From Mesotoga sp. BH458_6_3_2_1 (lineage in GTDB: Bacteria; Thermotogota; Thermotogae; Petrotogales; Kosmotogaceae), in the NCBI RefSeq assembly GCF_003664995.1, contig NZ_JFHL01000025.1:1-64000 (forward strand): a DNA stretch of 64,000 nt. Direction: 5' to 3'. Made by a program: the position numbers and the translations under genes. Shown here piece by piece: positions 12,288 to 63,534 of the stretch. The notes beneath the pieces were generated by a model that searched no databases, was not told where the DNA came from, and saw only the letters and a list, made by a program, of their open reading frames with translations. Position 1 is the stretch's first letter; each line of letters begins with the position of its first letter.

Positions 12288-12300
12288 GAATGACAGTGTC

Positions 12301-12362
12301 ATATGGGAGGCCTAAGGGCGGAGTTCTAGCGATTAGAGAACATACTGCCCTGCCTCCCATAT
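12301..12362. other. 62-nt imperfect palindrome (long hairpin)
   Basis: The outer arms ATATGGGAGGC (12301-12311) and GCCTCCCATAT (12352-12362) are perfect complements. Inner segments AGGGCgG and GTTCT pair with CtGCCCT and AGAAC, with small bulges. It starts 13 nt after the stop of the SBP-I42 gene. No T-run follows on either strand, so it is not a classic terminator. It could be a structured RNA end or a miniature element. Confidence 0.6.
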
Positions 12363-26329: not shown

Positions 26330-26425
26330 GTTATTATGCTTATTATCTATTATTTAATCAGTGATCTTTCTTATGAATATCACTAGCAAGAGAAATCGAT
26401 AGCTTTGTTCCCTGGAGGCAAAGAA

Positions 26426-29287: not shown

Positions 29288-29302
29288 TAGGAGGAATTCA
29301 CC

Positions 29303-33683: not shown

Positions 33684-34513
33684 TGGAAAACCCTGCCAAT
33701 CCAGTCTTCTTGAGATATCCAGGAGGAAAGAAGAGAAAAGTAAAAAGCTTTTTCGATCTCCTGCCGACAAAAGATGAGATTAAAGGTCGGTATTTCGAAC
33801 CCTTTCTTGGGGGGGCAACTGTCTTCTTCCACATAAGACCGAAAAAAGCAACTCTATCAGATCTGAGTGGCGATCTTATGGATCTCTACCGAGGTGTGAA
33901 AAAAGATCCAAAAGGAGTATGGCAGAAGTACAGGACTCTTCCAGAAGGGAGAGATGCATATTATGCGATAAGAAATGAAGATCTCTCAAAAGCAAATCTA
34001 ATAACAAGGGCAGCAAGAACTCTCTTCTTGAACAGAACGTGTTTTAAGGGTATGTGGCGTTACAACAGCGCAGGAAGATTCAATGTGGGTTACGGTGGCG
34101 AAGATAGGAGATGGGTTATCACAGAACACGACCTAGTTATGGTTTCGAAGCTTCTTAAGGGAAAGCACCTTCTTACATCGGACTTTGAACAGATTATAGC
34201 TTATGCAAATGAAGGGGATTATATATTCCTGGATCCTCCGTATCAGCCGGGTGAAAGTGAAATGCGCAACGATCACTTTGGGTACATGTGCTTCTCATTT
34301 ACCGATCAGATTCGTTTAGCTCGGTGCCTGACGAAAGCCTCAAGTAGAGGAGTGAAGTGGGCACTTACCAACTCAGGAGCATCAGAAATAACTGAACTAT
34401 ATCAGGACCTTCATTTATTGGTACTCGACTTATCAGTTTTGGAAACAGATAAAGGGGAAAGGTTAGAAACGAGGAAAGAGGTGATAATGACCAATCTAAC
34501 TAAGGGGGGGTAA
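33683..34513 (+). CDS. dam: Dam-like N6-adenine DNA methyltransferase (D12 class)
   Basis: The protein has 276 residues with FLRYPGGK (9-16), FEPFLGGATVFF (about 40-51) and FLDPPYQPG (about 182-190), the alpha-class Dam/M.DpnIIA layout. The GTG start overlaps the Res stop (TAGTG). Res ends one base before, so translation is coupled. A second methyltransferase inside a type III operon could protect a different site, or mark host DNA for the downstream HerA/NurA pair. No cognate type II endonuclease is adjacent. Confidence 0.9.
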   Translation: MENPANPVFLRYPGGKKRKVKSFFDLLPTKDEIKGRYFEPFLGGATVFFHIRPKKATLSDLSGDLMDLYRGVKKDPKGVWQKYRTLPEGRDAYYAIRNEDLSKANLITRAARTLFLNRTCFKGMWRYNSAGRFNVGYGGEDRRWVITEHDLVMVSKLLKGKHLLTSDFEQIIAYANEGDYIFLDPPYQPGESEMRNDHFGYMCFSFTDQIRLARCLTKASSRGVKWALTNSGASEITELYQDLHLLVLDLSVLETDKGERLETRKEVIMTNLTKGG

Positions 34514-34514
34514 C

Positions 34515-38028: not shown

Positions 38029-38101
38029 ACCTAACAGCTCTGAGCAATTTCATCACACAGCTTGTCACGCATCAATCTGAGCACATTGGAGGAACGACCA
38101 C

Positions 38102-39709: not shown

Positions 39710-40752
39710 TGATTAACCTTAGCATAGATGAGTTCTTTTGGCCATTTGTGAGGCTTTCAACTGATGTAGCGAACATAGAGAAAAATCCCGAGAAACTCTA
39801 CATGTTGCTTGTGGATATGATAAGAAACAGTTGTCCAATGGAGAGAAGTAAATTGGCTATTCTTGCGGACGAAATCAGGAGACTTCACAAGGAATCAAAG
39901 GCTAGAAAAGATGTTAAGAAAGTGGCCTTTTACGAAAAGATTCTGGGATTTCTTGACGGACTGAGAAACACGGGGCTAGTCTATGACTCGCTGCACTTGA
40001 CATCACTCGACATGAATGAAATAAGCAACGACAGACACAACTCCTTGAAGTACTATCATGTTCAATGGGACATAACGAATCATGCAGATGTAGTCGGCAA
40101 CAAACGGCTTTGGACCCAAATCGAGCGTGCAGTTACAAATACAGACAAAATTGCCGTGGTGGACAGATACATCAATCTTGCGATTCTTGACAAAGCTTGG
40201 GATTCTAAGAAAAAGAATGCGAATTGCTTTGATACGCTTGAATGGCTGTCCAAGAATCTCAAAGTCGACAAAGCCTCAAATCCAAATGATCCCATGATAT
40301 TCATAATTGCTACTTTTCCTGGCACCTCAGAAGATAGAAATAAACTCCAAGAACTTCTGAGAGACTTGGACAAGAAAGTAGTATCTTTCAGAAATGATTT
40401 TGATTTCCCTGTCTCTATACTTATCCCAACAAGTACTTTCGAAAGCAAAGAGTACTTGCATCTTCACGAACGATTCCTGATAACTACGCAAGTGATAATG
40501 AAATCGGATGGAGGCTTCGGTCTTACAAATACATCCGAAACAACATTGCTAGTTTGGAACTCCCAAAGGGTAATCAACTTGTTAAGACATCTTGAGGAGC
40601 TCAATGATGGGCTTCACGGGAAGCGCACCTTGAAAGTAGCTGTGTTTTCTCCTGATGAGAAGAAATGGCATCTTGAAAGCAAATTGCCTGACTCATTCAA
40701 GGAACTAGTTTGTACAGCCAAAAACAGATGTTACTCGCGACAGAGTAGGTAA
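39709..40752 (+). CDS. Unknown protein, probable effector partner of the OLD-like ATPase
   Basis: The protein has 347 residues, starting on the ATG that overlaps the ATPase stop, with GAGGAG eight nt upstream. I do not recognise the family. The first about 110 residues are helical. Two motifs stand out, VVDRYINLAILD (about 150-161) and YLHLHERFLITTQ (about 249-261), followed by GGFGLTNTSE. A paired Asp-Arg and His-x-Arg-Phe of this kind is reminiscent of phospholipase-D-like folds with an HDRF-type motif, but this is a guess. Its tight coupling to an ATPase suggests a toxic or nucleolytic effector. Confidence 0.65.
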   Translation: MINLSIDEFFWPFVRLSTDVANIEKNPEKLYMLLVDMIRNSCPMERSKLAILADEIRRLHKESKARKDVKKVAFYEKILGFLDGLRNTGLVYDSLHLTSLDMNEISNDRHNSLKYYHVQWDITNHADVVGNKRLWTQIERAVTNTDKIAVVDRYINLAILDKAWDSKKKNANCFDTLEWLSKNLKVDKASNPNDPMIFIIATFPGTSEDRNKLQELLRDLDKKVVSFRNDFDFPVSILIPTSTFESKEYLHLHERFLITTQVIMKSDGGFGLTNTSETTLLVWNSQRVINLLRHLEELNDGLHGKRTLKVAVFSPDEKKWHLESKLPDSFKELVCTAKNRCYSRQSR

Positions 40753-47907: not shown

Positions 47908-48666
47908 TCATTCCGATCTCTTTTCAACCCGTACCGACCTCTTCCAGATCCTGAAGTACTTTGCACCGATGTTGAATTTCTTGACAAACTCTGAGTATTC
48001 CGGCCAGATGGGCGCTCTGTAGAATTCGCTGCGGCCTATGCCTCCGTTTATGACATATTCGGGCAGAGGGTTGGTCCCGTAGAAGACCGACCGGGCCATT
48101 ATCTGCCATCTTCTGGTGAAGTCGGTCCAGTTACAGCCGAAGGCTTCCCCTGGCTGGATTATGGCCAGGATCTTAGGAGCCATCCTGTTCTCTAGATAAA
48201 GCGCCTGATAAGCCGCGGCGCCGTCCGCGCATATGAAAAGTAGCGAGAACCTGGACGGATTATGGTCTTCACCGTACTCTTCGGTTCTCTCGAATATGAA
48301 CCATTCGGCGAAGGGCTTCTCGAAGACATCCGAATAATGGTCGGGGCGGTGGTATTCGGCACGGTTTGGGGTGACCCTGATCCTCCAGCCGTTCGGCGCT
48401 AGCTGGCTCTCACTTATTGGAAGCTGGCGGATAACTCTGTATCCCCTGAATCCCTTGTTGGCGATCTCTTCGAGCAAGTTCTTCCTGCTTATGGAGTAGT
48501 CGACATATACGAAACTATAGACATTTCCCATAAAGTACTCGACCGGATGGCCGTCGTGGCCGCAGGCCGGGTAATACAGAGAGTCTTTCAACACGTCATG
48601 AATGTCGAATTCCGCGGGATTCTTTATCCATTCGGGCATTTCGGCCTTCGTCACTTCTTCAAACAT
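47908..48666 (-). CDS. Uncharacterised 'X' protein, short form
   Basis: The protein has 252 residues; the ATG at 48666 follows GGGAG and overlaps the stop of the methyltransferase-like gene by 8 nt. It is clearly homologous to the first about 270 residues of the gene at 50524-52188: MPEWIKNPAEFDIHDVLKDS, GNVYSFVYVDYSISRKNLL, GFRGYRVIRQ, FAEWFIFERTEEY and YQALYLENRMAPKILAI are shared almost word for word. I do not recognise the family. It has no signal peptide or enzyme motif. Tight coupling to an HsdM-like protein suggests a common complex. Confidence 0.75.
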   Translation of the reverse strand: MFEEVTKAEMPEWIKNPAEFDIHDVLKDSLYYPACGHDGHPVEYFMGNVYSFVYVDYSISRKNLLEEIANKGFRGYRVIRQLPISESQLAPNGWRIRVTPNRAEYHRPDHYSDVFEKPFAEWFIFERTEEYGEDHNPSRFSLLFICADGAAAYQALYLENRMAPKILAIIQPGEAFGCNWTDFTRRWQIMARSVFYGTNPLPEYVINGGIGRSEFYRAPIWPEYSEFVKKFNIGAKYFRIWKRSVRVEKRSE

Positions 48667-50524
48667 CGGAATCACTCCCTTCGTCTGTCGAAATTCTTCT
48701 GTCCTGCGATCCGCTCTGTTGAGGTCTGTCGGCCTTGATTGCCTCGACCGGAAGCCTCATGGCCTGAATTGCGTGCAAGGGCAGAAACTCCATGAAAAGG
48801 TGCTTTGTGGCTTCTCCAATGAGAAACTGGCCGTAGTCGCTCCTTAGAATGTTGAAGACCTTTACAGGATCGTATTCGCCGGAGACTCTAAAGACTATGT
48901 GATTGCCTGAGGGCAGTATCGACGCGTCTGAAGGGATGTCGGTTACCAGCCCTATGGTCGTTATGTCGTCTCTTCTGTTGAAGATGATGTCGTTCTTTCG
49001 TAGAAGGGATTTCTCAGCCGCTTTTGTGAGTTCTCCGGCATGCTCCTTTAGAGAGACCAGCTGAACGATGCCCTTCTCATCGACCTCCAAGCGAGGGTAC
49101 TTGTAGATCTTGCCTTTATACTCTTTTTCATCTGGCTCATGACCTTCGGGAAGGTCGGCATTCTTCGACTTCCGCAAGTATCTGTGTGATTCGAGGAACT
49201 CACCGATGGAATCCAGCTCGACGGTCGGGGAAGTCAGGAAGATTTCGTAATCATCGGGCAGCTGATCTTTCTTCACGGGGATTATCGAGTAGTCGCCAGG
49301 CACCAGGGAATAGCCGCTATTCTTTATCGTATCTATCGGGACCAGCGCGCATACTCCGCTTTCGCCTCTCCAGTCCCTGAAGTTTCTCATTACTGAACTA
49401 AGCAGAAGATTCTCCTCTCTCACTTCGAAGCAGAAAGGCTCTCTGCCGTCGCTCTTGGATACCGACATGAAGACCTGACCTTTCCTGCCGACGGGCTTCG
49501 CCTTGTTAAGGACCAGCAAACAGCAGTCGTCGTTTCCGCCGTGAACGGCTCCAAGGGGGAGTTGTATTACTGCTTCAAGCCAGTCGTTGTCTATTATTTC
49601 CTTATTTCCTTCTCTCAGCTCTCCTCTCGTAATCAGCGTCACGAGCTTGCCGTCATCCTTCATCGAGCGAATTCCATGGTTAATGAAGTCCCATTGGCTT
49701 ATGAGACCGGACGAGATATTTAGAATGTTTCGGAGGAAGAAATCAGTCTTCAACTCCTGCAATACCATGCGCTCGCCTGTTGGTGGCTCGATAATCACCC
49801 TGTCGTACTGTTCTTCCACATAGAGAGTCTCTTTCGTCGGTTTCACGAGGGAATCGCCCCTTACGAGCTTCGAGACGTCTATCCCGACAAGGGAAAGGAT
49901 AATCTTTGTGAGTCGCCATTTCCTAGGGTCGATTTCAAGTCCGGCGAAGGAAGTGTAGTCGAAGCCTTCTCTCCTGAAGATTGTGTAGAAGGCACGTCCG
50001 TAGCCGAAAGCGGGGTCGTAAACGGTCATTCCCGGTTCGATTTCGAGCAGATCGACCATCATATCAAGTATTTCCATCGGCACTATCATGTCAGAATAGA
50101 GAAGATTGGAGTCGATCGCAAATGAGAACATTCCCGTGTAGAAGGGGCCTATCAAAAGATCTATGTCCCTGATGGAGAGTCCGTCGATCATGCCGTCGGC
50201 GTAAGCGCAGGTTCTGTAGAAGAGGGGCGAGTCTTCTTTGAACGCCTCGCCCAATTCTCCTTTGAAGTCCATGAAAGCAAATTCCGGGTGCTCGACGATG
50301 AGCTCGGATATCGCGCTCTCAATGAGATCGGCCCGTTCCTTCCCGCTCTTTCCGAAGAACACGAACCTCCAGAAGACGCCACTGAATTGTACGTTCTGTG
50401 AGAGTTTCTTCAACAACAGGGAGCTCCAGAAGTACTCGATCGCCTTTTCCGAGAGCATCTTGTTTTGTTGACCGAGTTTGGAAAGAAGATACATGAAGTT
50501 CTGCACGCTGCCCGGAAAGTCCAT
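48659..50524 (-). CDS. HsdM-like methyltransferase fused to HsdS-like specificity region, EPPT at motif IV (copy 1)
   Basis: The protein has 621 residues. An N-terminal helical part (1-140) is followed by an N6-adenine methyltransferase fold: motif I YDPAFGYGRAFY (about 167-178), LEIDPRKWRL (about 197-206), then YDRVIIEPPTGER (about 239-251) where active enzymes have NPPY or NPPF. About 410-600 resembles a type I specificity half-subunit (LDSIGEFLESHRYLRKSK, LLRKNDIIFNRRDD, GNHIVFRVSG). Without the catalytic Asn it may bind DNA and SAM but not methylate. The start has GGGGGAG upstream; it overlaps the X-FGE stop by one base. Confidence 0.8.
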   Translation of the reverse strand: MDFPGSVQNFMYLLSKLGQQNKMLSEKAIEYFWSSLLLKKLSQNVQFSGVFWRFVFFGKSGKERADLIESAISELIVEHPEFAFMDFKGELGEAFKEDSPLFYRTCAYADGMIDGLSIRDIDLLIGPFYTGMFSFAIDSNLLYSDMIVPMEILDMMVDLLEIEPGMTVYDPAFGYGRAFYTIFRREGFDYTSFAGLEIDPRKWRLTKIILSLVGIDVSKLVRGDSLVKPTKETLYVEEQYDRVIIEPPTGERMVLQELKTDFFLRNILNISSGLISQWDFINHGIRSMKDDGKLVTLITRGELREGNKEIIDNDWLEAVIQLPLGAVHGGNDDCCLLVLNKAKPVGRKGQVFMSVSKSDGREPFCFEVREENLLLSSVMRNFRDWRGESGVCALVPIDTIKNSGYSLVPGDYSIIPVKKDQLPDDYEIFLTSPTVELDSIGEFLESHRYLRKSKNADLPEGHEPDEKEYKGKIYKYPRLEVDEKGIVQLVSLKEHAGELTKAAEKSLLRKNDIIFNRRDDITTIGLVTDIPSDASILPSGNHIVFRVSGEYDPVKVFNILRSDYGQFLIGEATKHLFMEFLPLHAIQAMRLPVEAIKADRPQQSGSQDRRISTDEGSDSDV

Positions 50525-52188
50525 CACTGCTCTCCCCCGTCGACCAGCACTGTCTTCGCTACGCGGAAGCCTATAGATGAGTTTGTGTAACGCTCCCCTG
50601 TGAAATCACGAGCCGAAATCGTTACTTCTTCACGGTCTTCACGTACGCTTCCGCCACGAAGGATTTTGAACACACCGGTTTCCCCATACGGGTTTATCTC
50701 CAGTCCCTCCGAGTATCTGTCGCTGTTGTCGCTGCACAGTTCCCAGACGTTGCCGGACATATCGTAAAGTCCGAGTTCGTTCGGGCTCTTCAACCCGACC
50801 TCTCGAGTTCTGTCGGATGAGTTTTCAATATACCAGGCGACCTCATCGACGTCGTTACTTCCGGCGAAGATATAATCTCTGCTCTTGTTACCTCCCCTGG
50901 CCGCGTATTCCCATTCTGCCTCGGTAGGCAACCTGTAGCCGGCAACTCTTCTTAAGTCGGTCGTGTGTGAGCCGTCGCAATCAAGCAGCTTTCCCAATTC
51001 ATCGTACGCCGGGGGCAGGCCTTCCTTTTCGCTCAACCAGTTGCAGTAGGAGATGGCGTCTAACCATTTCACATTCGTAACCGGTTTTGTGCCGTTCGGG
51101 GATTCTTCATCCACGGGTTCTTCTGCGCCCGTTTCCCTGCAGAACCTCGAGTACTCCTGACACGTGACGGTGTATCTGCCGATATAGAAATCATAGGTAA
51201 GCATCACATAGAGGGTATTACCTTCGGCAATATCTCGTATTCTCCCTACCTCGCTCATCTCGAACTCGCCGTTCTCGACAAAGACGAGATCGTTTTCAGA
51301 TGTTTCCTGCTGATGGTTCCCTCTCTGCTCGGAAACAGGTGGATTGAGCCTTGCGGGGTCTCCCGAGTACCTCCAGATAGTCACGCAGAAATTATACCCG
51401 TTGAAGTACTTCTTCACCCTGTTCGTGTATTCTGGCCAGGGTTCAGTAAAACCTGACATACCGACTATGTATTCAGGCAGGGGATTGTCGCGGTAGAATA
51501 TCGTCCTGGCGAGGATCTTCTCTCTGAGGGCGAATTCTGTCCAGTTCAAGCCGAAGCCGTATTGCGGGATTACGATGATTTTTGGAGCCATCCGATTTGC
51601 GAGATACAGGGCCTGGTAGGCCGCTACCGCCTCGGTGTTGAGAAAGAAGAAGGAGAAGCGTTTCGGATTGTGCGTCTCGTCGTACTCTTCGGTCCTCTCT
51701 AAGATGAACCATTCGGCGAAGGGCTCTTTCTGGATTCTACGCTCCGAGTTAGGGTTGCCATCTCGCTCATCCGGCAGGACCTTCTTCCACGAAGGATTCA
51801 GAATGTCTAGATATCCTGCGAAGTAACCTCTTTCGCGGTCTCCACGGAAGTGGTCGAACCGCCTCTCTCCTCGCGGATCGTCCTCGCGGTAATACCACGT
51901 AAGCGCGTCCCATCCACCCCGATGGAGTCTGTAGGGGTCTATCGATTCTTGTCGGATCACACTGTAACCTGTGAACCCGTACTCGGCCATATCCTGCAGC
52001 AGATCTTCTCGGCTTATGAAGTAGTCGATGTACACGAAGCTGTAAACGTTTCCCATGTAGTATTTGACAAAATGGCCGTGAAGGCCGCTGGCAAGGTAGC
52101 AGAGAGAGTCCTGCAGAATGTTCCTTATGTCGAACTCCCCTGGGTTTCTGATCCATTCCGGCATTTCCATTGACGGTAGTTCCGTCAT
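50524..52188 (-). CDS. 'X' domain fused to FGE-sulfatase/SUMF1-like domain
   Basis: The protein has about 554 residues. Residues 1-270 are the X domain shared with the short form. Residues about 295-550 are an FGE-sulfatase (C-type-lectin-like) domain: LVFVENGEFEMSEVG, WLDAISYCNWLSEKEGLPPAY, RLPTEAEWEYAARGG, LGLYDMSGNVWELCSD, LRGGSV and SIGFRVAK. The two cysteines that genuine formylglycine enzymes carry after RGGS are absent, so it is probably a binding domain. AAGGAGGA lies upstream; a TTG one codon before is also possible. It is followed directly by the methyltransferase-like gene. Confidence 0.8.
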   Translation of the reverse strand: MTELPSMEMPEWIRNPGEFDIRNILQDSLCYLASGLHGHFVKYYMGNVYSFVYIDYFISREDLLQDMAEYGFTGYSVIRQESIDPYRLHRGGWDALTWYYREDDPRGERRFDHFRGDRERGYFAGYLDILNPSWKKVLPDERDGNPNSERRIQKEPFAEWFILERTEEYDETHNPKRFSFFFLNTEAVAAYQALYLANRMAPKIIVIPQYGFGLNWTEFALREKILARTIFYRDNPLPEYIVGMSGFTEPWPEYTNRVKKYFNGYNFCVTIWRYSGDPARLNPPVSEQRGNHQQETSENDLVFVENGEFEMSEVGRIRDIAEGNTLYVMLTYDFYIGRYTVTCQEYSRFCRETGAEEPVDEESPNGTKPVTNVKWLDAISYCNWLSEKEGLPPAYDELGKLLDCDGSHTTDLRRVAGYRLPTEAEWEYAARGGNKSRDYIFAGSNDVDEVAWYIENSSDRTREVGLKSPNELGLYDMSGNVWELCSDNSDRYSEGLEINPYGETGVFKILRGGSVREDREEVTISARDFTGERYTNSSIGFRVAKTVLVDGGEQ

Positions 52189-52851
52189 CAAACTGACCAC
52201 TCCTCCTTATGATATTCCGCGATCGAAATCGCTACCCGTTAAACGGGTCTATTGGCTTATCTGACCTCACTACAACCGCACAATGGGATTGTCACTGGAT
52301 CGGAAACGGGAGAAAGTCTTATGAGTTGATATTCTGTGGAGCTGAGTGATAGTGCTGTTCGGACTGTCCGATGCTTAAAAAGCTACAAGAAAGATTGCAC
52401 CGGCTGGATACAACGGAGAACAGAAATGTCCGTGTGGGATTTGGATTCTGAAAGTCGACTTAAGGATACTATGGTGTCCGTGGTTTCTGGATTCGACATA
52501 AGCAATTGATTCGATAGGATTTGATCTACCTTGGAGACCTCAATTAAACGGTTTTTGAGTAGCGGAGTTAATTCACATCCTGTTGATTCGAATTGTCTAG
52601 AATAACTAAGTTAATTATACAGTAAAGTTCATGCCAGTAAGTTACGGCGTTATATCTATAATAATCATCTATTCATTACGAAACACTTACATAATTGAGG
52701 GATGAATCCGTTGACTCGTCTATCTCGCCCGAAAGAGACGGCCCTCGTAGATCTCGAACAGTCTCGCAATGCTAGAGCTGTCAAGTCCGGGGCCGATCGA
52801 TTCTTCCCCAAGTTTGGCGGGCGTGTTTACGGAAGAGTCTCTGTCAATTCG
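52189..52851. other. Gap between two methyltransferase-like units
   Basis: No intact gene is supported. The part 52720-52851 is an open continuation of the upstream methyltransferase-like frame after its TAA. The remainder (52189-52700) is A+T-rich and may contain a promoter for the X-FGE gene; I could not define one. Confidence 0.5.
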
Positions 52852-54651
52852 TTACTTACTCCCAAAAATAGCCGGTATCCTCATCTCTTCCAATGCGTCA
52901 AACGACATGCCACCAAAGAACATGTCTGCCTTCGCCTTATGGATCAAATGTTTTCCGTAGTCACTACGAAGGACTCTCAAGACTTCAAGAGCATCATACT
53001 CTTCCCTTACTCTCAGTACTACGTGATCTCTCGAAAGAATCACCGTCTCATCGTCAAGGATATCTCCGAAAATACCTACGCTCTCTTCTCCCGACCAGAC
53101 AGAGATAACGATGTCAGACTTTCTAAGGATCCCGGATTCTGTGACCTCCAACGGTGTCCTGAGTTGACTCGCCGAGCGATATAAATCTATGACGCCTTCC
53201 GAATCGGTCGACACTCTCTCCAGGATATAGATTCTGCCCGATTTCATCTTGCCATGAAGCGGTGTCTCCGAGTTCAGGCCGTGCTCAGGGCCGTAACCGA
53301 CTCTATCTGGATTCCTGCCAATAATGAACTCCCCAATCTCTTTAAGCTCTATCATTGGGGCGTTGATGAGTTCTTCAAAACTCACTTTCTTTCTTCTGGG
53401 CATACCCGCAGATATAGCATAGTCTCGCGGTCTCAGGGTGTACCCGTTTGCAGTTATAGTCTGAATCGAGACAATGCCGCTTCGATTCGGTTCCGAGAGC
53501 CATCCCCTGTACTGCTCTGTGAATCTCGATGGCCAATCGATCGGGTTCCGTATGTCGAACCAGTCGATCTGCCTTTCCGATTCGGGAACCACAAGCAGCA
53601 CTTTTTCCTTCCTTTGAGTGGGTTTGGATTTGTTTATTACGAGAATGCTTGTCTCTCTTCGAAGGAAGTTTCCCCTACCGATGGGAAGCTCTATTACGGC
53701 TTCCAGCCAGTCGTTGTCGACTATCTCACAGATCGGGTTTTCAAGTGCTCTTGTCTCTATAAGGCTTACCATTTTCCCCGTTGGCTTAAGACATTCGATT
53801 CCGTGTTTAATGTAGCTCCACTGGCTTCCGGGAACCTTAGATACCTCCAGAATGCCTCTTGTCAGATACCCCGTCTTGATTCTGTAAGAGAGAAGCTTCT
53901 CGCTGGATGGCGGCTCGAGTATCACCCTGTCGTACTGAGAATTCGACAGGAGCGAATAGTCTTCCGGCCTGGTTAGCGGGTCTCCCTGCTTCATATTCAC
54001 GGCGTTCAATCCGAGTAGAATCAAAGCTATCTTTCCGATACTGTGTCTGTATGGGTCTGCCTCCAGGCCGGCGTATTCGAGGTTTTCGAGGGTATTGTTC
54101 TTGAAGATACCGTAAAGGGTCCTGCCGAAGCCCGTTGATGGATCGTATATGCTCATTCCATGCCGGACATCTAGCAGTTCTACCATTGAATCGATCACCT
54201 GCGGGGGAGCATCCGAACCTCCTTCAAGCAAATCGGATTCCATGGATACCGAGAGCAGAGCCTCGTACAGAGAGCCGCTCTTGTCGAAGATATCCTTCAT
54301 CGCCAATTGATCGACGAACGAGTCGACGTAAGCGCATGTCTTTTGAAGTAGCTCGGGACCTTCGCTGAAGATCCACAAATACTTGCCTTCATAATCGATG
54401 AATCTGAACCGGGGATACCTGCTGATTATCTCCTTCAACGCCTTCTCTATCAGCACCGCCCTTTCAATTCCACTCTTGCCGAAAAGAGCGAACTCTTCGA
54501 AGACATCGAAGTAGTTCTCTCGAAACGAGTTCTTTCTGAGCAACATGTTCGTCCAGAAGTACTCTATGGCCCTCTCCGAAAGGCTTCGGTCTTCTTCTCG
54601 CAATTTGAATAGGAGATAGATAAAGTTCTCTGCAAAACTTACTAGATCCAT
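52852..54651 (-). CDS. HsdM-like methyltransferase fused to HsdS-like specificity region, EPPS at motif IV (copy 2)
   Basis: The protein has 599 residues and is a full-length paralogue of the 48659-50524 product (shared ...LSERAIEYFW, FGKSGIERA..LIE, DNDWLEAVIELP, LRKSDIVISVWSGEE). Motif I is YDPSTGFGRTLY (about 167-178) and motif IV is YDRVILEPPSSEK (about 236-248), again Glu for Asn. The C-terminal target-recognition-like part (about 430-590) is diverged from copy 1, as expected if each reads a different DNA sequence. AAGGGGG lies seven nt before the ATG. The TAA is followed by 43 further open codons in frame. Confidence 0.8.
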   Translation of the reverse strand: MDLVSFAENFIYLLFKLREEDRSLSERAIEYFWTNMLLRKNSFRENYFDVFEEFALFGKSGIERAVLIEKALKEIISRYPRFRFIDYEGKYLWIFSEGPELLQKTCAYVDSFVDQLAMKDIFDKSGSLYEALLSVSMESDLLEGGSDAPPQVIDSMVELLDVRHGMSIYDPSTGFGRTLYGIFKNNTLENLEYAGLEADPYRHSIGKIALILLGLNAVNMKQGDPLTRPEDYSLLSNSQYDRVILEPPSSEKLLSYRIKTGYLTRGILEVSKVPGSQWSYIKHGIECLKPTGKMVSLIETRALENPICEIVDNDWLEAVIELPIGRGNFLRRETSILVINKSKPTQRKEKVLLVVPESERQIDWFDIRNPIDWPSRFTEQYRGWLSEPNRSGIVSIQTITANGYTLRPRDYAISAGMPRRKKVSFEELINAPMIELKEIGEFIIGRNPDRVGYGPEHGLNSETPLHGKMKSGRIYILERVSTDSEGVIDLYRSASQLRTPLEVTESGILRKSDIVISVWSGEESVGIFGDILDDETVILSRDHVVLRVREEYDALEVLRVLRSDYGKHLIHKAKADMFFGGMSFDALEEMRIPAIFGSK

Positions 54652-55075
54652 TCCAAGCCCCCTTTTTCATTTTTAGTTCAATCAGGTTGTCTTGCTCTGA
54701 CTGTTTTAACCTGCGTTCCATGGAATCTCCCTTAACATGTTTCCCCGTTCTTCACCTCCTGAAATCTCACTGTTCATATCTTCGCAGACTTAGCCATAGG
54801 CGACAGCCACCGGAGCAGCCGATTGCTCGCGCTTGACCGATAGATCGATGAAAAAAGCATTTTCACTATATGTGAATAGAGAGTTTCGCCGAGAATCAAT
54901 CTCGGAACCTCACGGAGGATAACCTTCTCTGATGACTCTGGAAATGCAATACGATTCAACTACCGCAAGCCTTCCTTCGCACAAGAATATATTCGGGTGA
55001 GTGACGACAATGAATAAAGTTGCTGGACGTAACGGCAAGACTATTAAATTAATTATATCAGGAGTGAGATACGCA
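54652..55075. other. Divergent upstream region
   Basis: It separates the leftward X/methyltransferase-like genes from the rightward addBA genes. A minus-strand frame starting at 54721 has a good AAGGGAG site and runs into the methyltransferase-like gene in another frame; it could be a short leader peptide. No other gene is supported. Confidence 0.45.
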
Positions 55076-55103
55076 TTGTTTACGTTATCAAAAACTGTAC
55101 AAT
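55076..55103 (+). promoter_or_regulatory. Promoter of the addBA-FGE operon
   Basis: TTGTTT (55076-55081), 16 nt, then TACAAT (55098-55103). The -10 box overlaps the first in-frame ATG (55102), which argues that translation begins further downstream, at 55141. Confidence 0.5.
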
Positions 55104-55140
55104 GGTAGTAAAGTTAAGATCTTTATTTAGGGGGCAGTTC

Positions 55141-58100
55141 TTGAAAGGTGTTCTTGTCTGTGGAAAAGAAGGCAGAAGAAGAAGCGATTGCTTGCTGCAG
55201 AAGATCCAGGAAAGCTACAGCGGAGATCCCTTCTCCTTTCTCTTCGTAGGACCATCTTCTTTCTTTCTGCGAACGGTGAAAGATTCCTTGGTGAAGAGGG
55301 GGCTTTCGATCGCCGCCGGACAGTTCAGTACTGAGAGATCTCTTGCCATGAAAATGGTTAGGGAGATGTTCCCGGATCTCAGAGCCGTTCCCGAAAGAGG
55401 CGAAAGAATAGAGATCGCGAAGGCCTTCGAAAAGGTCAAGAAGTACTATCCTTCAGAAAAGGCCACGAGCTACTTTCATGAAGCCATCGTAGTCTTGAAG
55501 GAGAATCTCGGAAATTTCGAGACCGCCTTCGGGAGAGAAGACGTCGTTCCCGAGGTTCTGAAGAAAGTCTACGCAGAGCTTCAAGAACACTTTAAAGAAG
55601 GCAAGCTTTTCGATTCATACGATGCCATGAGGCTGGCGGCAGTGCAAACCGATCTCGAAAGAGGCGCTTTCGGAAAGACTCTGTTCATAGACGGTTTCTA
55701 CGATTTCAGTCCGGCAACCAGGGCTTTTCTGAAGAATATTATGCGTTGTTTCGACGAGGTTTATCTCTCATGTCCTGGAGATAGTGATAGAAAAAATCTG
55801 TTCAGGGAGAGTCAAACCATTTCAGCTCTCTTCGAGGGCATCGGCTTCGACAAGATAAATGTTGATCGGAGCGAAATCGGCCCACTTACAAAAGTGAATG
55901 GGATTCTCTTTTCGGATCGGGAAGAGTTCAATGACACCGGGTGTGAAAACGCTGAGATTGTCGAGTGCAACGATCTGTACGGAGAGGTCGACTTCGTCGC
56001 CAGGGAAGTAAAGAGAGCGATAGCGAAGGGAGAACTGAAGCCGGAGGAGATAGAGATTGTAATACCGAATCAGGATTACTGGAGGGTATTGAAGAAATCG
56101 CTGAACGACTTCGGGATCCCTGTAGTGAGCAAGAATTCGGTTTCCTTGCTCGAATCGAAGAGCATCCAGACCCTTCTACTGCCGCTTGAAGTGGTATCCG
56201 ATTCTTTCGAGCCTTGGGGAATCCTCGAAATGATAGATGCCGGCTACGGTGGCGGTACGATAGATTCCGTTCTTTTCGAGAAAGTAATGGCATCGGCCGG
56301 TCTGCAGTTCGAAATGTCTGGAGCCACGACAGAGGATGCAAAGAAGGCATGGCTGGAGAAGCTAGAGACTTACAAACGTTTTCTCGGTGCAAAATCTGAA
56401 AGCCTAGCCTCCAAAGACGATCTTGACGAGGACTTCTCTGCTCTGTCCCAAATCCAGGAGATAAAAGAAGAGATACGGTTCATAGAGTATGCTGCCAAAC
56501 CCGCTGTCAAGAGGGTCTTTTCACTTCTGAATAGCATTGATAGAAATGTGTCGATGCCTCTTTCGAAATATGAAGCCTTCTTCCGAGTCTGTGAAGAGAA
56601 ACTTGGACTAAAAGAGCTTACGGGAAACAAGGAAAAGACATTGGTATCTGAAAACATTGCCTGCGTCGAACAGTTCATTCAAAGAGCCGTTCCTTCACAC
56701 GCCGGGATTCTTGAAGCTATGGAAATCACCGAGTACGATCCAGAAAAATACCACAAGTCTCTCATGAAGTATCTGGAAGGCGAGGATCTGCGGGGCGAGG
56801 CCAATATGGGGGGTGGAGTCGAAGTCCTCTCACTGATCGACTCTCGTTACACTTCGAAGAAGGTCAAGTACTTCATGGGATTCAACGAGGGAAATTACCC
56901 CGTTTTGTCTCTCAATCCACTCTATGCGGGCGCGCAGTACTCCGAGCCCAGAGCCAAGGACATTCTGGGCATTCAGGAGAACAGGCAGAAACTGGGCCTT
57001 TTTCTGGCGATGAGCGGTGCACAGGAGAGGCTCTGCATAACTTTCTCGAACTCCACGGTCGATGGGAACGTGCTGATGAAGTCTCCTTACGAAGGATCGG
57101 TTCTTGGGGCATTCGGCAAATCTGAGCCCAAACCCCACGGCCGCGTAGAAGGCAAGCGCACCGATCTCGTGTCCGTGCCGTCGGAGGCTATGAGCCCGGC
57201 GGATTACAGGCTTTCGATAGCCAGTCTGTTCAAGGAGAACCCCGAGGAATGGGAGAAACATAAAAACTCGGAAACAGTCTCCACTCTGGAGAAGAACCTG
57301 AGCTCGATCACAAACGACTTTTCCTTCAAGGTCCCCGGCGTGAAAGCAGCCGAGGAGCTGACGGAGAAATGTATTAGCTTCTCTACGGTCGGGACCTACT
57401 GCAAGTGCAAATTCAAGTATTTCTTGAACTATGTGCTTGGGTTGCAGCCTGTTCCGGAGGAGATACTAGAGCTTTCTCCCATGGATGCGGGAAGCGTTTT
57501 TCATGCCGTTCTCAGCGATCACCTCGGAAGTGGCGTCGCGCTAGATGAGAGCCTCGAGAAGAATCTCCGGAGGTTTTCTGGCGGCATAAACAAGGCGCTC
57601 TTCAAAAGGCGCTACGATCAGATGTTGAAGATACTTACAGAATATATGGATTACGATCAATCGGAGGAGACCAGTGCCGGAAGGACTGTATTCCGTACGG
57701 AGCTCTCCTTTGGGTTCGATACATCCGATTACGGCCCGCTGAAGCTGACCCCCGAGATTTGTGTACACGGAATCGTAGACAGGATCGACACTTGTGAAGA
57801 TGGTACGCTATTTGTCATCGACTACAAGAGCGGCAAAAGTCTGGGATCAGCGATGGCCGAACAGCTTATACTCTATTCGATGGCAGTCGAAAACGCCTTC
57901 TCGGAAGAGAACAAAGTGGTGAGCGGGGGAGAATTCAGGCTCATAAAGGGTAAGAATAAAGCCAACAATTTTTCGATCGATTACTCTTCGGGTGAAAGAA
58001 AGTGGAAGTTCGACGGCAAACTGAAATTCAAGATTTGCGAGACTGCCGAAAAGGGAAAGATTTCGGACGATGAGTTTGTCAGAGCCGTTGAAGAGATAAT

Positions 58101-58233
58101 CAAAAGCGTCCAGTCGGGCGATTTCTCCATCGAAACCTGGAAAGGAAAAGCATCTAATTGCTACAGGTGCGAAAACGAAGGAATCTTCAACATTCTGAAG
58201 TGGAGACAAAAAGGCGGGCCAAGCGATGAATAA
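55141..58233 (+). CDS. addB: AddB-like helicase/nuclease subunit
   Basis: The protein has 1030 residues. The TTG at 55141 is preferred because AGGGGG lies six nt upstream, while the ATG at 55102 falls inside the promoter. The N-terminal part follows AddB but its Walker A loop is degenerate (CGKEGRRRSD). The C-terminal nuclease has SFSTVGTYCKCKFKYFLNY, AGSVFHAVL, GIVDRID (about 876) and FVIDYKSGK (about 891-899), with CYRC near the end. The iron-sulfur staple shows fewer C-terminal cysteines than in Bacillus AddB. It overlaps the AddA-like gene by 8 nt. The pair should resect double-strand ends for recombination or degrade foreign DNA. Confidence 0.85.
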   Translation: MKGVLVCGKEGRRRSDCLLQKIQESYSGDPFSFLFVGPSSFFLRTVKDSLVKRGLSIAAGQFSTERSLAMKMVREMFPDLRAVPERGERIEIAKAFEKVKKYYPSEKATSYFHEAIVVLKENLGNFETAFGREDVVPEVLKKVYAELQEHFKEGKLFDSYDAMRLAAVQTDLERGAFGKTLFIDGFYDFSPATRAFLKNIMRCFDEVYLSCPGDSDRKNLFRESQTISALFEGIGFDKINVDRSEIGPLTKVNGILFSDREEFNDTGCENAEIVECNDLYGEVDFVAREVKRAIAKGELKPEEIEIVIPNQDYWRVLKKSLNDFGIPVVSKNSVSLLESKSIQTLLLPLEVVSDSFEPWGILEMIDAGYGGGTIDSVLFEKVMASAGLQFEMSGATTEDAKKAWLEKLETYKRFLGAKSESLASKDDLDEDFSALSQIQEIKEEIRFIEYAAKPAVKRVFSLLNSIDRNVSMPLSKYEAFFRVCEEKLGLKELTGNKEKTLVSENIACVEQFIQRAVPSHAGILEAMEITEYDPEKYHKSLMKYLEGEDLRGEANMGGGVEVLSLIDSRYTSKKVKYFMGFNEGNYPVLSLNPLYAGAQYSEPRAKDILGIQENRQKLGLFLAMSGAQERLCITFSNSTVDGNVLMKSPYEGSVLGAFGKSEPKPHGRVEGKRTDLVSVPSEAMSPADYRLSIASLFKENPEEWEKHKNSETVSTLEKNLSSITNDFSFKVPGVKAAEELTEKCISFSTVGTYCKCKFKYFLNYVLGLQPVPEEILELSPMDAGSVFHAVLSDHLGSGVALDESLEKNLRRFSGGINKALFKRRYDQMLKILTEYMDYDQSEETSAGRTVFRTELSFGFDTSDYGPLKLTPEICVHGIVDRIDTCEDGTLFVIDYKSGKSLGSAMAEQLILYSMAVENAFSEENKVVSGGEFRLIKGKNKANNFSIDYSSGERKWKFDGKLKFKICETAEKGKISDDEFVRAVEEIIKSVQSGDFSIETWKGKASNCYRCENEGIFNILKWRQKGGPSDE

Positions 58234-61123
58234 AAACACATTCATCTCCGCTTCTGCAGGCACCGGCAAGACATACAGGCTGGTGGAGGAATACATGGGA
58301 ATTCTTCGCTCCGACGAAAAGCTGGGCATCGAAAACATCCTGGCGATTACCTTCACTGAAAAGGCCGCTGCGGAGATGAAGGAGAGAGTGGCGAAGGCGA
58401 TACTGGAACAAATAGATAAAGCTGCCAGCGAAGGCGAGCGGAAAAGATGGAAAGAAATCAATTCAAGGGTCATGCACGCCTGGATCTCGACTATCCACTC
58501 CTTCTGCGCGAGAATACTCAGGGAGTCTATTCTGAATACGAGTTCCGATCTGGATCCTGGATTTTCTATTATTACGGGAACGAAGAAGATACTCGAACTT
58601 CAGGCCCTTGGAAGGTTCTTCTCGCGCAATCTCGATTCTCTGGATGAAATGATAGACATCTACGGCCTGGACAAGACTTACAAGATTCTTGAGGACTGCC
58701 TCTCCAAACAGAGACACAACATGTATCTCTACAGCCCCATTGAAAACAAAGATAAGGAAGAGAACGCCGAGAAGATCTCCAGAGCGACAGCTGTCTGCCA
58801 CGAAGCATTCAAGAAGCTAAACAAGGAATACGAGGAACTGACATTGAAGAAGGCTCAGCTCGACTTCGAGCAGTTGCTGGAAGAGACAAGGAAGATGCTG
58901 AACGACAATCCCAAGATAGCAGATGAATATTCCAAGAGGTTCAAGTACATTCTAGTAGACGAGTTCCAGGATACGGACGAGCTTCAGGCGGAGATTATCA
59001 GTAAGTTGACGGCTTCGGGAAATGTGAAGGTGCTTTTTGTAGGGGACGACAAGCAGTCGATTTACCGGTTCAGGGGAGCGAATGTCGAGATCTTCAATCT
59101 GACAAGAAGGAAATTCGAAGAAAGCGACGACGCCACGGACACTCTCGGAAAATCATACAGGTCGCACCCGGAGATTGTGAAGTTCCACAACATATTCTTC
59201 AAGAAAGTGATGAGCAACCCAACGCTTGAGGCATTTGCGTCGAGGTACGGCAAGAATGTGGAGGCCCTTGAGCCTCACGGTGACAGGAGAGAAAAGCGGT
59301 TAAGAATACTTGAAAGCAAAGATAAAGACCACGCAGGACCCATCGCTGCTCATATACGTTCGCTTCTGGATGAGGAGCTCGATTTCAGAGAGGGAAAATC
59401 TGTTGTAACGCGCAAGATACGGCCAGGAGATATAGCCATACTCCTCAGGAAGTTCAAGAACGTTGAAAAGTATCAGGAGGCGCTTGAAGCAAATCGGATT
59501 CCTTACTATACGGTGGGCTCTAGAAAGTTCTTCCAGCGGCCCGAGATAGCCGGACTTATAGCATTCGTAAGTTTTCTCGGCAATCCCGCAGACGACAGGG
59601 CCTTCCTGTCGTTCTTCCTTTCTCCAGCATGGGGAGGCACGCTTCAGGATGCGGCGAGACTCAAGGAGAAATACAGTCACTTCTATGATTGCATTATGAG
59701 GAGCGAAGACAAATCCTTCGTCGATCTTCGCACGATCATAACAAGGTATTCGCGCCTTGCGAGACTACTTAAGCCGGGAGAGATTCTCGACTCCTTCGTC
59801 GGAGAGACGGACTACCTTCCGAAGATGACGCTCCTTGCAATGCCCGAGCAGTGTCTGGCCAACGTAATTAAATTCCTTCAAATATCCAAGGAGCTCGACT
59901 CTCTCGGGATAAGTTTGAGGGAGTTTTCGAAGAACATTGAATTGTATTCCGAAGAGGCAGACGAGGGTGAAGCGGCCCTGGAGAACGAGAAGAGCGACAG
60001 CGTGAAGATAATGACAGTCCACCAGGCAAAGGGGCTGGAATTTCCCGTTGTGATCGTTGCCGAGATGACGGAGAATCCGAGGAAAGAGACCCCTTCAATG
60101 CTTTTCGACACAGCTTCGAAAGGCTTCACTCTTTACAGCAAGGAACTGACGACGGACGACCTAGACATGGTGTATAGAGCAGATCTGAGAAAACAGGTCG
60201 AAGAAGAGAAGAGAACCCTCTATGTTGCGCTTACAAGACCCAGGGAAATACTTGTAATGAATGTCGACAAAGAGGCCATGGAGAAGGATCTGAAAAAGAA
60301 GAGAGACGATACGGCTATCGGCTGGCTTCCTCAGATAGTGATTGGCCTTTACAACGATGAAACCGGGCAGCTGGAAGATGAGCTCGAGGACCTGGCTACT
60401 TTTGTGAAGGCCCCGGCTATCATTGAAGGCGCGGAAATTCGACGTGAAGAAACCCCGTGGGAAGAGCCCGATAACGGTTACATGAAGCGCTTCGATCATC
60501 TCAAATTCAGGAGAATAGTCTCACCCACTACGCTCGACTTCGATGACAAACAGACAGAGATTCTGGAACTTGACAGTATCGAAAGAACTTCACGTTCCTC
60601 AACGGCCGAAGGGCTGTACGTTCACAGGATCTTCGAGCAGCTCGGAAACCCCGCTGGAAGACCAAAGGGAAAGAGACTGAATGAGATCCTGAGCGATCCT
60701 GAACTTCTAAGAGAGTCGGCGGCCCCTGAAAGGGCAAAGGAGATCCTGGAGCAACTGAAGGAGCTTGGCCATCACGAGATAATTCGCGAAATCGAGGACT
60801 CAGAGGTTTGCAGAAGCGAAGTGCGCTTTGAGAGAGCCTTCGACAAGTTCATACTGGCGGGCGTAATCGACAAACTCTACAAGACATCTGAAGGCTGGAA
60901 GATCGTTGACTTCAAGCTGGCCGAAAAGAGAGCTGACATGCTTGAGAGATACAAGTTCCAGATGGAGTTCTACCTGTATCTTCTGAAGAATTCTCTCGAC
61001 CCTGTTTCGGCGACTATTCTGTATCTCAAAGACGGGGATACGGAGACCGTGACTCTCCAAAACACTCGCGACTTCGAAATCAGACTCGAAAACCATGTGA
61101 CCCATCAAACAGAAGAAAACTGA
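58226..61123 (+). CDS. addA: AddA-like helicase-nuclease
   Basis: The protein has 965 residues, shorter than Bacillus AddA (about 1230). UvrD-type motifs: ISASAGTGKT (7-16), AITFTEKAAAEMK, VDEFQDTDELQ (about 243-253), GDDKQSIYRFRGAN (about 273-286) and TVHQAKGLEFPVVIV (about 597-611). The C-terminal RecB-type nuclease has GVIDKL (about 878) and KIVDFKLAEK (about 892-901), then YKFQMEFYLYLL. All catalytic residues look intact. The start ATGAATAA overlaps the AddB stop. It is the partner of the AddB-like protein and lies upstream of the FGE-like gene. Confidence 0.88.
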   Translation: MNKNTFISASAGTGKTYRLVEEYMGILRSDEKLGIENILAITFTEKAAAEMKERVAKAILEQIDKAASEGERKRWKEINSRVMHAWISTIHSFCARILRESILNTSSDLDPGFSIITGTKKILELQALGRFFSRNLDSLDEMIDIYGLDKTYKILEDCLSKQRHNMYLYSPIENKDKEENAEKISRATAVCHEAFKKLNKEYEELTLKKAQLDFEQLLEETRKMLNDNPKIADEYSKRFKYILVDEFQDTDELQAEIISKLTASGNVKVLFVGDDKQSIYRFRGANVEIFNLTRRKFEESDDATDTLGKSYRSHPEIVKFHNIFFKKVMSNPTLEAFASRYGKNVEALEPHGDRREKRLRILESKDKDHAGPIAAHIRSLLDEELDFREGKSVVTRKIRPGDIAILLRKFKNVEKYQEALEANRIPYYTVGSRKFFQRPEIAGLIAFVSFLGNPADDRAFLSFFLSPAWGGTLQDAARLKEKYSHFYDCIMRSEDKSFVDLRTIITRYSRLARLLKPGEILDSFVGETDYLPKMTLLAMPEQCLANVIKFLQISKELDSLGISLREFSKNIELYSEEADEGEAALENEKSDSVKIMTVHQAKGLEFPVVIVAEMTENPRKETPSMLFDTASKGFTLYSKELTTDDLDMVYRADLRKQVEEEKRTLYVALTRPREILVMNVDKEAMEKDLKKKRDDTAIGWLPQIVIGLYNDETGQLEDELEDLATFVKAPAIIEGAEIRREETPWEEPDNGYMKRFDHLKFRRIVSPTTLDFDDKQTEILELDSIERTSRSSTAEGLYVHRIFEQLGNPAGRPKGKRLNEILSDPELLRESAAPERAKEILEQLKELGHHEIIREIEDSEVCRSEVRFERAFDKFILAGVIDKLYKTSEGWKIVDFKLAEKRADMLERYKFQMEFYLYLLKNSLDPVSATILYLKDGDTETVTLQNTRDFEIRLENHVTHQTEEN

Positions 61124-61220
61124 AAACAGTCTCTGATTGGCTTTGCTGTATGGAACGGACTTGATGACGGAGGGCTTTATTGCCTGCGCAGTGAGTCTCC
61201 GTCTAGAAGGAGTGAGCTCT

Positions 61221-63215
61221 TTGAACGAAAGAGTTAGAGAACAACTCACAGAGCTGGTGAAGACGCACGGTGTAGATATACTCGATCAACCGGATAAGAT
61301 CGAGACCTTGCTCAAAACGTCCTTTGGGGAATCTGAAACCGAGATAATGGCTATCGTAACGGCTCTGAGAGAGGGTTTGCTCAGAGAGTTACTGAGAAGC
61401 GAAGACTCCTCTGCACGGACTGCTGCAATTGAAGGCTTTTCCCGACGACTTAGAAAAAACCGCTCCATGGATGAAGAGGCCGCGAGCTGGGCTATAGAAA
61501 GCATAGCGTTAGCGCTTGGGAAGTTAACGCCGGCCGAAACTGAATCTTCCGGGATGAAGACAACAAATGGAGATGAACTGGTCTACATCGAGGGCGGTAG
61601 TTTTGCCATGGGTGACACCTGGGGAGACGGAGCCGACGCTGAAAGACCGGCGCACAGAGTGAATATCACGTACGATCTCTACGTGGGTAAGTATCCAGTG
61701 ACCTTCGAGGAATACGACAGGTTTTGCATGGAGACAGGAGCCACGGAACCGGAAGATGAGGGACTGGGAAGGGGAAGAAGACCGGTAATCAACGTGAACT
61801 GGTTCCAGGCGACCTGGTACTGCAACTGGTTAAGCGAGAAGGAGGGCTTACCTCCGGCCTACTATGAAGACGGGAGTCTTCTGGACGAAAACGGGAAGAA
61901 GACGAATGACATAGCGAGAGTACGGGGATACAGGTTGTTGAGCGAGGCCGAATGGGAGTATGCGGCAAGGGGCGGAAGAGAGAGCCGAGGTCACAAATAT
62001 TCCGGTTCCGATGACCCGAGCCTTGTTGCCTGGTTCGATGAAAAACCCAGTGAAGCTCCGACCGATTTGAGTAAAGCAAAGAGGCTCGTAGCCCACGAAG
62101 TTGGGATGAAGATGCCAAATGAACTTGGCCTGTACGACATGAGCGGCAGTGTTTGGGAGTGGTGTTCAGATCGATTCGATGATTATGCCGGTTCGGAACA
62201 GACAAATCCACATTCAATAAGCGAAGGCGGCCGGGTCATTCGGGGCGGCTGCTGGTTCAAGCCCGCCAATTTAGCAAGGATTGCTCACCGAGAAGAACTT
62301 TCACCGATGGAAATCCACAATGGCGTGGGCTTTCGAATCTGCAGAGCGGCAGATCGAAAAACAAAAGCAGTTTCATTTTCAGAGAGAAATGAAAGACAGG
62401 CCGATGAGTCCTCATTTATGCCAGCCGGAGAGGTTCCCGACTTGGTGCTCGTTGAGAGAGGAAGCTTCAAAATGGGAGACACATGGGGCGACGGATTGAT
62501 AGACGAAAGACCGGTTCGCGAAGTAAGAATTACGTATGACTTTTACATTGGCAAGCACGAAGTCAGGTTCTCAGAATTCGACGTCTTCTGTGAAGCCACG
62601 GGAAGAATCCCTCCTTCCGACGAGGACTGGGGGAGGGGAGATTTGCCCGTCATAAACGTAACTTGGTGGGACGCCGTGGAGTTCTGCAACTGGCTTAGCG
62701 AGAGAGAAGGTCTCCCAAAGGCCTATGACGATGACGGACGCCTCCTGGATGCCACGGGAAAGGCTACGGACAAATTGGAAAGAGTACCCGGATTTAGGCT
62801 GCCTACGGAAGCCGAATGGGAATATGCGGCCAGGGGAGGTAACAAGAGCGAAGGTCATAAGTATGCAGGAAGCGACGACGTGGACGAAGTCGCCTGGTAC
62901 TGCGAAAATTCGGGAATCAAGACGCACGAAGTGGGAAAGAAGGCGCCGAATGAACTGGGAATCCACGATATGTCCGGCAACGTCTGGGAGTGGTGCTCCG
63001 ACTGGTACGAGGAAGACTACTACAGGTACAGCCCAAATGTGAACCCGTACAATACCGAAGGCGACTACGAACGGGTCATGCGGGGCGGCAGCGCGGGACT
63101 TAATGAGACTTTCGCCCGGGTAACACATCGCGATTATCTGGAGCCCTCTTCAGCGGGCAACGCTGTCGGCTTTCGCATATGCAGAACAGCCAAAAACCAA
63201 TCCGAACTTCCTTGA
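61221..63215 (+). CDS. Helical domain plus two FGE-sulfatase-like domains
   Basis: The protein has 664 residues. The TTG at 61221 has AAGGAG eight nt upstream; the frame extends to 61137 without a ribosome site. Residues about 1-100 form a helical domain (LLRELLRSED..., RLRKNRSMDEEAASWAIESIALALG) of a kind often seen before FGE, WD40 or kinase domains in signalling or conflict proteins. Residues about 118-395 and 425-660 are tandem FGE-like domains (VYIEGGSFAMGDTWGDG and LVLVERGSFKMGDTWGDG; RLLSEAEWEYAARGG and RLPTEAEWEYAARGG; SGSVWEWCSD and SGNVWEWCSD). The paired cysteines of catalytic FGE are absent. It closes the addBA operon, 97 nt downstream. Confidence 0.83.
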   Translation: MNERVREQLTELVKTHGVDILDQPDKIETLLKTSFGESETEIMAIVTALREGLLRELLRSEDSSARTAAIEGFSRRLRKNRSMDEEAASWAIESIALALGKLTPAETESSGMKTTNGDELVYIEGGSFAMGDTWGDGADAERPAHRVNITYDLYVGKYPVTFEEYDRFCMETGATEPEDEGLGRGRRPVINVNWFQATWYCNWLSEKEGLPPAYYEDGSLLDENGKKTNDIARVRGYRLLSEAEWEYAARGGRESRGHKYSGSDDPSLVAWFDEKPSEAPTDLSKAKRLVAHEVGMKMPNELGLYDMSGSVWEWCSDRFDDYAGSEQTNPHSISEGGRVIRGGCWFKPANLARIAHREELSPMEIHNGVGFRICRAADRKTKAVSFSERNERQADESSFMPAGEVPDLVLVERGSFKMGDTWGDGLIDERPVREVRITYDFYIGKHEVRFSEFDVFCEATGRIPPSDEDWGRGDLPVINVTWWDAVEFCNWLSEREGLPKAYDDDGRLLDATGKATDKLERVPGFRLPTEAEWEYAARGGNKSEGHKYAGSDDVDEVAWYCENSGIKTHEVGKKAPNELGIHDMSGNVWEWCSDWYEEDYYRYSPNVNPYNTEGDYERVMRGGSAGLNETFARVTHRDYLEPSSAGNAVGFRICRTAKNQSELP

Positions 63216-63534
63216 CACAACCAAATAATTTTTTCTCAATACACTTTTAGAATCATTTACTGCTGGACCCGGTTCCTTAGAAAATGGAGACGGGAAGATG
63301 ACGACCTACACTGAGCAGTTCTTCTACTGTAGAACGCGCTCATAGAAAGGAGGAATCATATCTGGAGTACAGATCTTCATTTCGGAAAACAGCAGGCCCG
63401 TTCTTGTCATGAGCTTTCATCTCGCTGCATAAAACAGAGATTCTTCCTCTGCAATCACCGTTTCTCAAAGGTCCTGCTGAAAGCAAGTGAGAGTGTGTCA
63501 ATTACGGGAACTAAATAACTGGAGGGATCGAATA
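63216..63534. other. Gap without a gene
   Basis: An AAAGGAGG site at about 63346-63353 is followed by no usable start or long frame; it may be a relic. A promoter for the next gene is expected here but not clear. Confidence 0.4.

Follow-up and report, generated by a model that had tools for sequence, protein, structure and literature searches.

Seven linked genes in a Mesotoga genome, including methylase-like DNA readers and an accessory AddAB, probably form one undescribed defence system

The window analysed here is the whole stretch of 64,000 nucleotides at positions 1-64,000 of contig NZ_JFHL01000025.1 from Mesotoga sp. BH458_6_3_2_1, whose genome is 3.23 Mb in size. Positions 47908-63215 of the window hold seven genes (about 15 kb), which form two divergent sets on either side of an intergenic region at 54652-55101. 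The leftward set starts from 54651 and comprises MS2, X-FGE, MS1 and X, with overlaps of a few bases between the last three. The rightward set starts from 55102 and comprises AddB and AddA, which overlap, and FGE2, which begins 13 bp past AddA. The features are listed here together with their identity to G005, another genome of the same genus.

47908..48675, minus strand: X, 255 aa; dN/dS 0.18-0.27
48659..50527, minus strand: MS1, an N6-methylase-like domain (about aa 125-415) and one HsdS-type target-recognition domain (TRD; aa 423-602)
50524..52200, minus strand: X-FGE, an X domain (about 51331-52200) and an FGE-sulfatase-like domain (50554-51297)
52201..52851: gap between MS2 and X-FGE, 651 bp; 90-92% identity to G005 across most of its length
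52852..54651, minus strand: MS2, a second methylase-like protein with 37% identity to MS1 and an EPP motif
54652..55101: divergent intergenic region, 450 bp; about 80-90% identity to G005
55102..58233, plus strand: AddB, accessory copy; an intact PD-(D/E)XK nuclease motif and a degenerate N-terminal Walker A
57600..58200, plus strand: nuclease-domain patch of AddB, 54-62% identity to G005 between flanks of 95-97%
58226..61123, plus strand: AddA, accessory copy; helicase (UvrD) and C-terminal nuclease motifs both intact
61137..63215, plus strand: FGE2, an N-terminal region of about 130 aa without a family match, then FGE-like domains at 61572-62342 and 62433-63182
47928..63475: the entire block that aligns with G005; the DNA beyond either end is unlike

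Searches of Pfam and NCBIfam matched N6_Mtase in both MS1 and MS2, FGE-sulfatase once in X-FGE and twice in FGE2, AddB with PDDEXK_1 in the first gene of the rightward set, and AddA with UvrD and PDDEXK_1 in the second. The FGE-sulfatase matches (PF03781) lie on the minus strand in X-FGE and on the plus strand in FGE2, confirming the coordinates of an earlier note on this DNA, which had placed FGE-like domains on both sides of one divergent intergenic region. A search of Rfam with positions 40000-64000, which include the gap between MS2 and X-FGE, gave no match. Inspection by eye of the block edges revealed no inverted or direct repeats, and hence no mobility mechanism is claimed.

Do the two divergent halves belong together? 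The shared block is sharply bounded on either side: its whole length matches G005:C38:17044-32628 (90.3% identity), and its neighbours differ between the two genomes. To the left of the block, window 8667-12729 also matches G005 (92.4%), so it is probable that both copies occupy the same locus and possible that gene order has been kept by descent. G005 is accordingly weak evidence of linkage, but it fixes the extent of the block. The strongest evidence for one unit is a rearranged and diverged copy on contig L070, in which all seven genes are adjacent and the halves are convergent (->X-FGE->MS1->X->MS2 <-FGE<-AddA<-AddB). Protein identities between this copy and the window are 85% for X, 70% for X-FGE, 62% for MS1, about 60% for FGE, 56% for AddA and 45% for both MS2 and AddB. 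Given this convergent arrangement in L070, the module does not always have a divergent promoter shared by its halves. L070 (MPOY01000489.1) is binned as Methanoculleus sp. EBM-46, yet it carries the Thermotogales-type genes of the module of this genus; a binning error in the public record is probable.

The L070 gene order recurs in G007 (Thermotogales bacterium Thermo_02, of the same genus) on LVBU01000064.1, also termed L068, a contig that ends inside FGE2. No accessory AddA or AddB was found in the G007 bin, whose X contig stops within the FGE gene. Two further contigs in the bin of L070 fit a broken assembly, without proving it: L069, with 5.5 kb that match the X cluster of G007 at 99.85% identity, and a contig of 5.26 kb that carries a second accessory addBA. 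Positions 1-4977 of L069, to the left of the X cluster, encode a P-loop protein of more than 1650 aa that resembles STAND/NACHT-type ATPases. In G007, an LRR protein is found there; the left flank of the X cluster differs between these near-identical copies.

Among 103 Thermotogota genomes, X is present in three, and accessory AddB in two, both of them X-bearing. A fourth genome, G004, retains a remnant of the C-terminal end of X (L061 12544-12837, on G004:C61), a sign of module loss there. All seven reading frames are open, and the measurable pairs of window genes with those of relatives give dN/dS of 0.14-0.33, indicating purifying selection; the comparisons of MS2 with G007 and L070 were saturated. 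The earlier note had proposed that AddAB and DNA-reading proteins make up one module of about 15 kb, a proposal that the linkage in L070 and the co-occurrence of X and AddB support. Frequent occurrence of either half alone was not seen in the 103 genomes, and in L070 all seven genes lie side by side. The seven genes stay together across diverged, rearranged copies, which supports a single module.

What kind of proteins are MS1 and MS2? Their matches to PF02384 (N6_Mtase) have E-values of 5e-26 (MS1) and 3.6e-19. MS1 carries YDPAFGYG at motif I and EPP at motif IV, and against PDB profiles its methylase half matches PacII M1/M2 (E 5e-29 to 4e-32) and EcoR124I M (3e-16). The structure model of MS1, built from six sequences, is confident only C-terminally (aa 432-600, pLDDT mostly 70-90); the methylase half of the model is poor, and the M identity is therefore taken from sequence. 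Residues 423-602 of the model match HsdS TRDs with Z-scores of 14.5 (PacII S), 12.0 (1yf2) and 11.4 (EcoR124I S). The same part also matches the TRDs of M.TaqI and CamA, and its top-ranked matches are two Esub1 entries (Z 15.4 and 14.8), to which no meaning is attached. In MS1, then, a DNA-methylase domain is joined to an HsdS-type TRD. For MS2, a TRD is predicted by homology to MS1 only; this homology is full-length, with the C-terminal half diverging fastest. The C-terminal (TRD) halves of both proteins are also their most divergent part in comparison with L070, a pattern expected of specificity domains.

Every MS copy has EPP where the M enzymes of PacII and EcoR124I carry NPP. The HsdM relatives from Thermotogota in which the pattern was found all have NPPF, except for the MS copies of the module and a solitary EPP homologue in G005, although in several Thermotogota matches the pattern caught no motif. 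Motif I of the SAM type (DPxxGxG) is kept in most MS copies; the MS2 copy of G007 (L096) did not match the motif I pattern. A motif IV of EPP is expected to be inactive and, because relatives have NPPF at this position, the MS proteins probably read DNA but do not methylate it. Binding of cofactor and DNA is probably retained, as far as their motifs indicate. The label 'M-S-like' in the earlier note thus holds for the presence of an M domain and a TRD, but the M part has EPP and not NPPF.

The solitary EPP-type methylase-TRD homologue (L062 10653-12569, on G005:C22) adjoins a CRISPR-Cas locus (Cas1, Cas3, Cas5, Cas7, Cas6) and an AbiEii gene. Its existence indicates that the readers are not strictly dependent on AddAB. 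Plasmids of Paenibacillus and Salimicrobium encode 'N-6 DNA methylase' proteins (L118 7587-9437; L119 5641-7539) with the same M-TRD layout and with HPP and NFPF at motif IV, possibly representing a wider family of non-methylating readers. No member of the MS family was found in viral contigs.

AddB and AddA of the module are recognised by TIGR02773 and TIGR02785, in addition to their UvrD and PDDEXK_1 domains. The C-terminal PD-(D/E)XK domain of AddB (PF12705, 1.7e-24) has an intact motif in alignment, and AddA combines a UvrD motor with a C-terminal PD-(D/E)XK domain, the motifs of which are likewise intact. At the AddB Walker A, the accessory copy reads GKEGRRRS compared with GPSASGKT in native AddB. 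The last of the four cysteines of the AddB iron-sulfur cluster is absent from the window copy and from three aligned native AddBs, and present in the G005 and L070 copies. Native addBA is also found in the genome, on C29 and without FGE, in a neighbourhood shared with G001 and partly with G008. Native AddAs of the family share 38-45% identity with accessory AddA, which has a clade of its own (support 100/100); the placement of this clade as sister to most of these native AddAs has support of just 83/88. Across the 103 Thermotogota genomes, accessory AddB copies share at least 84% identity, against at most 32% for all other AddBs. FGE directly follows AddA only in module copies, among the AddA loci scanned. 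The addBA pair of the module is accessory and not housekeeping. The AddB nuclease-domain patch has sharp edges and, in the alignment with G005, is an allelic swap of one domain between close relatives.

The FGE domains were read by the cysteine pair after RGGSW, which we take to be the FGE active-site motif. As the earlier note had claimed, the pair is missing, in all three module domains, when their C-terminal segments are inspected: X-FGE and the second domain of FGE2 (FGE2b) lack any cysteine after RGGSW, and the first (FGE2a) has one, elsewhere in position. Most FGE-like domains listed for this genome are likewise without the catalytic pair. The same note had also held that shared FGE domains link the two halves. 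The genome has 17 FGE matches, several of them clustered, and in a tree of 22 FGE domains those of the module fall into three lineages (X-FGE, FGE2a and FGE2b), each conserved among module copies. Constraining them to one group is rejected (p-AU 0.014); hence no single ancestor within the module gave rise to the FGE domains of both halves. Being too common in the genome and not a single clade, they were rejected as evidence of linkage; they are constant parts of the module, yet by themselves no link between the halves. Thus, the single module and the catalytically dead FGE domains survive from the earlier interpretation, and the linking role of FGE does not.

A cluster of FGE-domain reading frames, several of them fragments, lies 10-18 kb downstream of the module (L055 10250-18307, G000:C25 73250-81307). 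FGE/C-type-lectin sensor domains have been described in diversity-generating retroelements (DGRs) and in ternary conflict systems (PMC7159879, PMC10907252). The module resembles these in having FGE-type C-type-lectin domains on defence-type proteins, but differs from DGRs in that the genome has no match to a DGR reverse transcriptase: PF00078 matches only a group II intron-like reverse transcriptase of 391 aa and a fragment. The possibility that FGE proteins are DGR targets was rejected, the sole full-length reverse transcriptase in the genome appearing to be of the group II intron type.

X has no match in Pfam, NCBIfam or PADLOC, no significant match among PDB sequences, and no match in plasmids, phages or viral contigs. 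It is known only alongside the module, in one genus and on contigs L069 and L070. The AlphaFold model of X (pLDDT 39) was discarded.

The surroundings of the module contain further genes of defence type. Upstream lies a collinear operon of eight genes (26405-40752), encoding in order a UvrD-PDDEXK protein (RecB-like), an N6_N4 methylase of type III type, a ResIII protein with a TnsA-like nuclease end, a D12 (Dam-type) adenine methylase, a HerA-like ATPase, an unknown protein, an AAA_15 ATPase and a second unknown protein. This operon is a candidate for a large defence system in its own right. A DUF4011/MTES_1575 helicase gene is found downstream of the module, and in G005 a type III restriction-modification (R-M) set lies to the left of the block. 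The defence-island setting makes a defence role of the module likely, without proving it.

How does the module compare with known systems? Like type I R-M systems (HsdM/HsdS/HsdR; PacII M1M2S, EcoR124I), it has HsdM-type N6_Mtase domains, in MS1 and MS2, an HsdS-type TRD, of which one is found in MS1 (Z 11-15 to HsdS chains), and a motor and nuclease nearby; PacII M1M2S also shares the use of two different M proteins. In contrast to type I systems, M and TRD are fused in the module, one TRD is shown (MS1), motif IV NPP(F/Y) is replaced by EPP in every MS copy, and family searches found no HsdR-type protein among the seven genes, which instead include AddAB, X and FGE genes. Because membership fails on motif IV and on HsdR, the module is described as type I-like in its working and not as type I. 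In PADLOC, mad2 ranks first or second among the matches of MS1 and of MS2, which are partial. This is a likeness to the methylation-associated defence system (MADS), but of the gene set MAD1-MAD8 only these partial mad2 matches appear among the module proteins; the module is without the MAD1 and MAD3-8 partners and has an AddAB effector. With Gabija (GajA/GajB) it shares a UvrD-type helicase within a defence island. However, the seven proteins have no match to the OLD-family nuclease GajA among the PADLOC matches listed, and module AddA is nearer to AddA/RecB than to GajB. From housekeeping AddAB, with which it shares a UvrD helicase, two PD-(D/E)XK nuclease domains and the addB-addA order, the module pair differs as a second copy beside the native one that forms its own clade and is accessory in the genus, as well as in its degenerate AddB Walker A, the FGE gene after addA and the link to DNA readers. 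The combination of AddAB, readers and X/FGE is absent from PADLOC-DB as scanned and from the open-licence literature searched. The module is probably one undescribed defence system.

By what mechanism might it act? The leading reading, held tentatively, is that the 15.5-kb block is a single accessory DNA-defence module of type I-restriction-like character, in which the readers control AddAB in place of HsdR. Beyond the gene content, we infer a defence role, that MS1 and MS2 pair and do not methylate, that AddAB substitutes for HsdR, and that X and FGE serve as sensor or scaffold. MS1 and MS2 would pair as a two-part DNA-reading complex comparable to the M2S core found in type I restriction enzymes, binding cofactor and DNA with no methylation. 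The accessory AddAB would replace HsdR and would unwind and degrade foreign DNA, either by loading at DNA ends or once activated by the readers bound there. X and the dead FGE domains, which have the C-type-lectin fold, may serve as sensor or scaffold, X-FGE and X with the readers and FGE2 with AddAB. A narrower version, possible if doubtful, is restriction without modification, in which non-methylating M-TRD readers guide AddAB onto foreign DNA and a different cue protects the DNA of the host. Such a cue might be that free ends are lacking, that the motif read is missing, or that X/FGE sense a ligand.

If MS1 and MS2 were active adenine methylases despite EPP, marking the host so that AddAB attacks unmarked DNA, the module would be a true R-M system. 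The well-scored N6_Mtase domain, the retention of DPxxGxG in most copies, the HsdS-like TRD and purifying selection on the genes agree with this. It is nevertheless unlikely: every MS copy of the module, as well as one solitary homologue, has glutamate in place of the catalytic asparagine of NPPF, the plasmid relatives have HPP and NFPF, which suggests that the family is drifting from methylation, and the MS2 copy of G007 falls outside the motif I pattern. Slightly less likely still is a back-up role in end resection, in which the accessory AddAB evades phage inhibitors of native AddAB, or guards the latter, with FGE2, X and MS proteins only tuning it. Native addBA is indeed present too, the nuclease domain of accessory AddB is swapped between close relatives, as expected for a target of phage inhibitors, and Gabija is proposed to act against phages that antagonise RecBCD (PMC12407980); however, two sequence-reading proteins in every intact copy are left unexplained.

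Less likely again is that X/MS and addBA-FGE are two independent defence systems that have become neighbours by chance in a defence island. Defence genes do cluster, solitary MS-type proteins exist, one X-bearing bin (G007) has no detectable accessory AddBA, and the order in G005 may have been kept by descent and is thus not independent. Against this, L070 keeps the seven genes adjacent despite the change from divergent to convergent halves, with MS2, AddB and AddA at 45-56% identity, and none of the 103 genomes has accessory AddB without X. That addBA is a housekeeping duplicate unrelated to defence is scarcely credible: although AddA and AddB retain the nuclease motifs of repair enzymes, the pair is missing from most of the genus, has no conserved gene context, lies in an island of unlike cargo and forms its own diverged clade.

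AddAB is known as a housekeeping nuclease that also acts, in a minor role, on phage DNA. If the reading in which DNA readers control AddAB in place of HsdR is true, a defence system with restriction-type DNA readers would have taken over AddAB as its dedicated effector. This would raise a testable question: what protects the host genome from a restriction-like system that does not methylate it?
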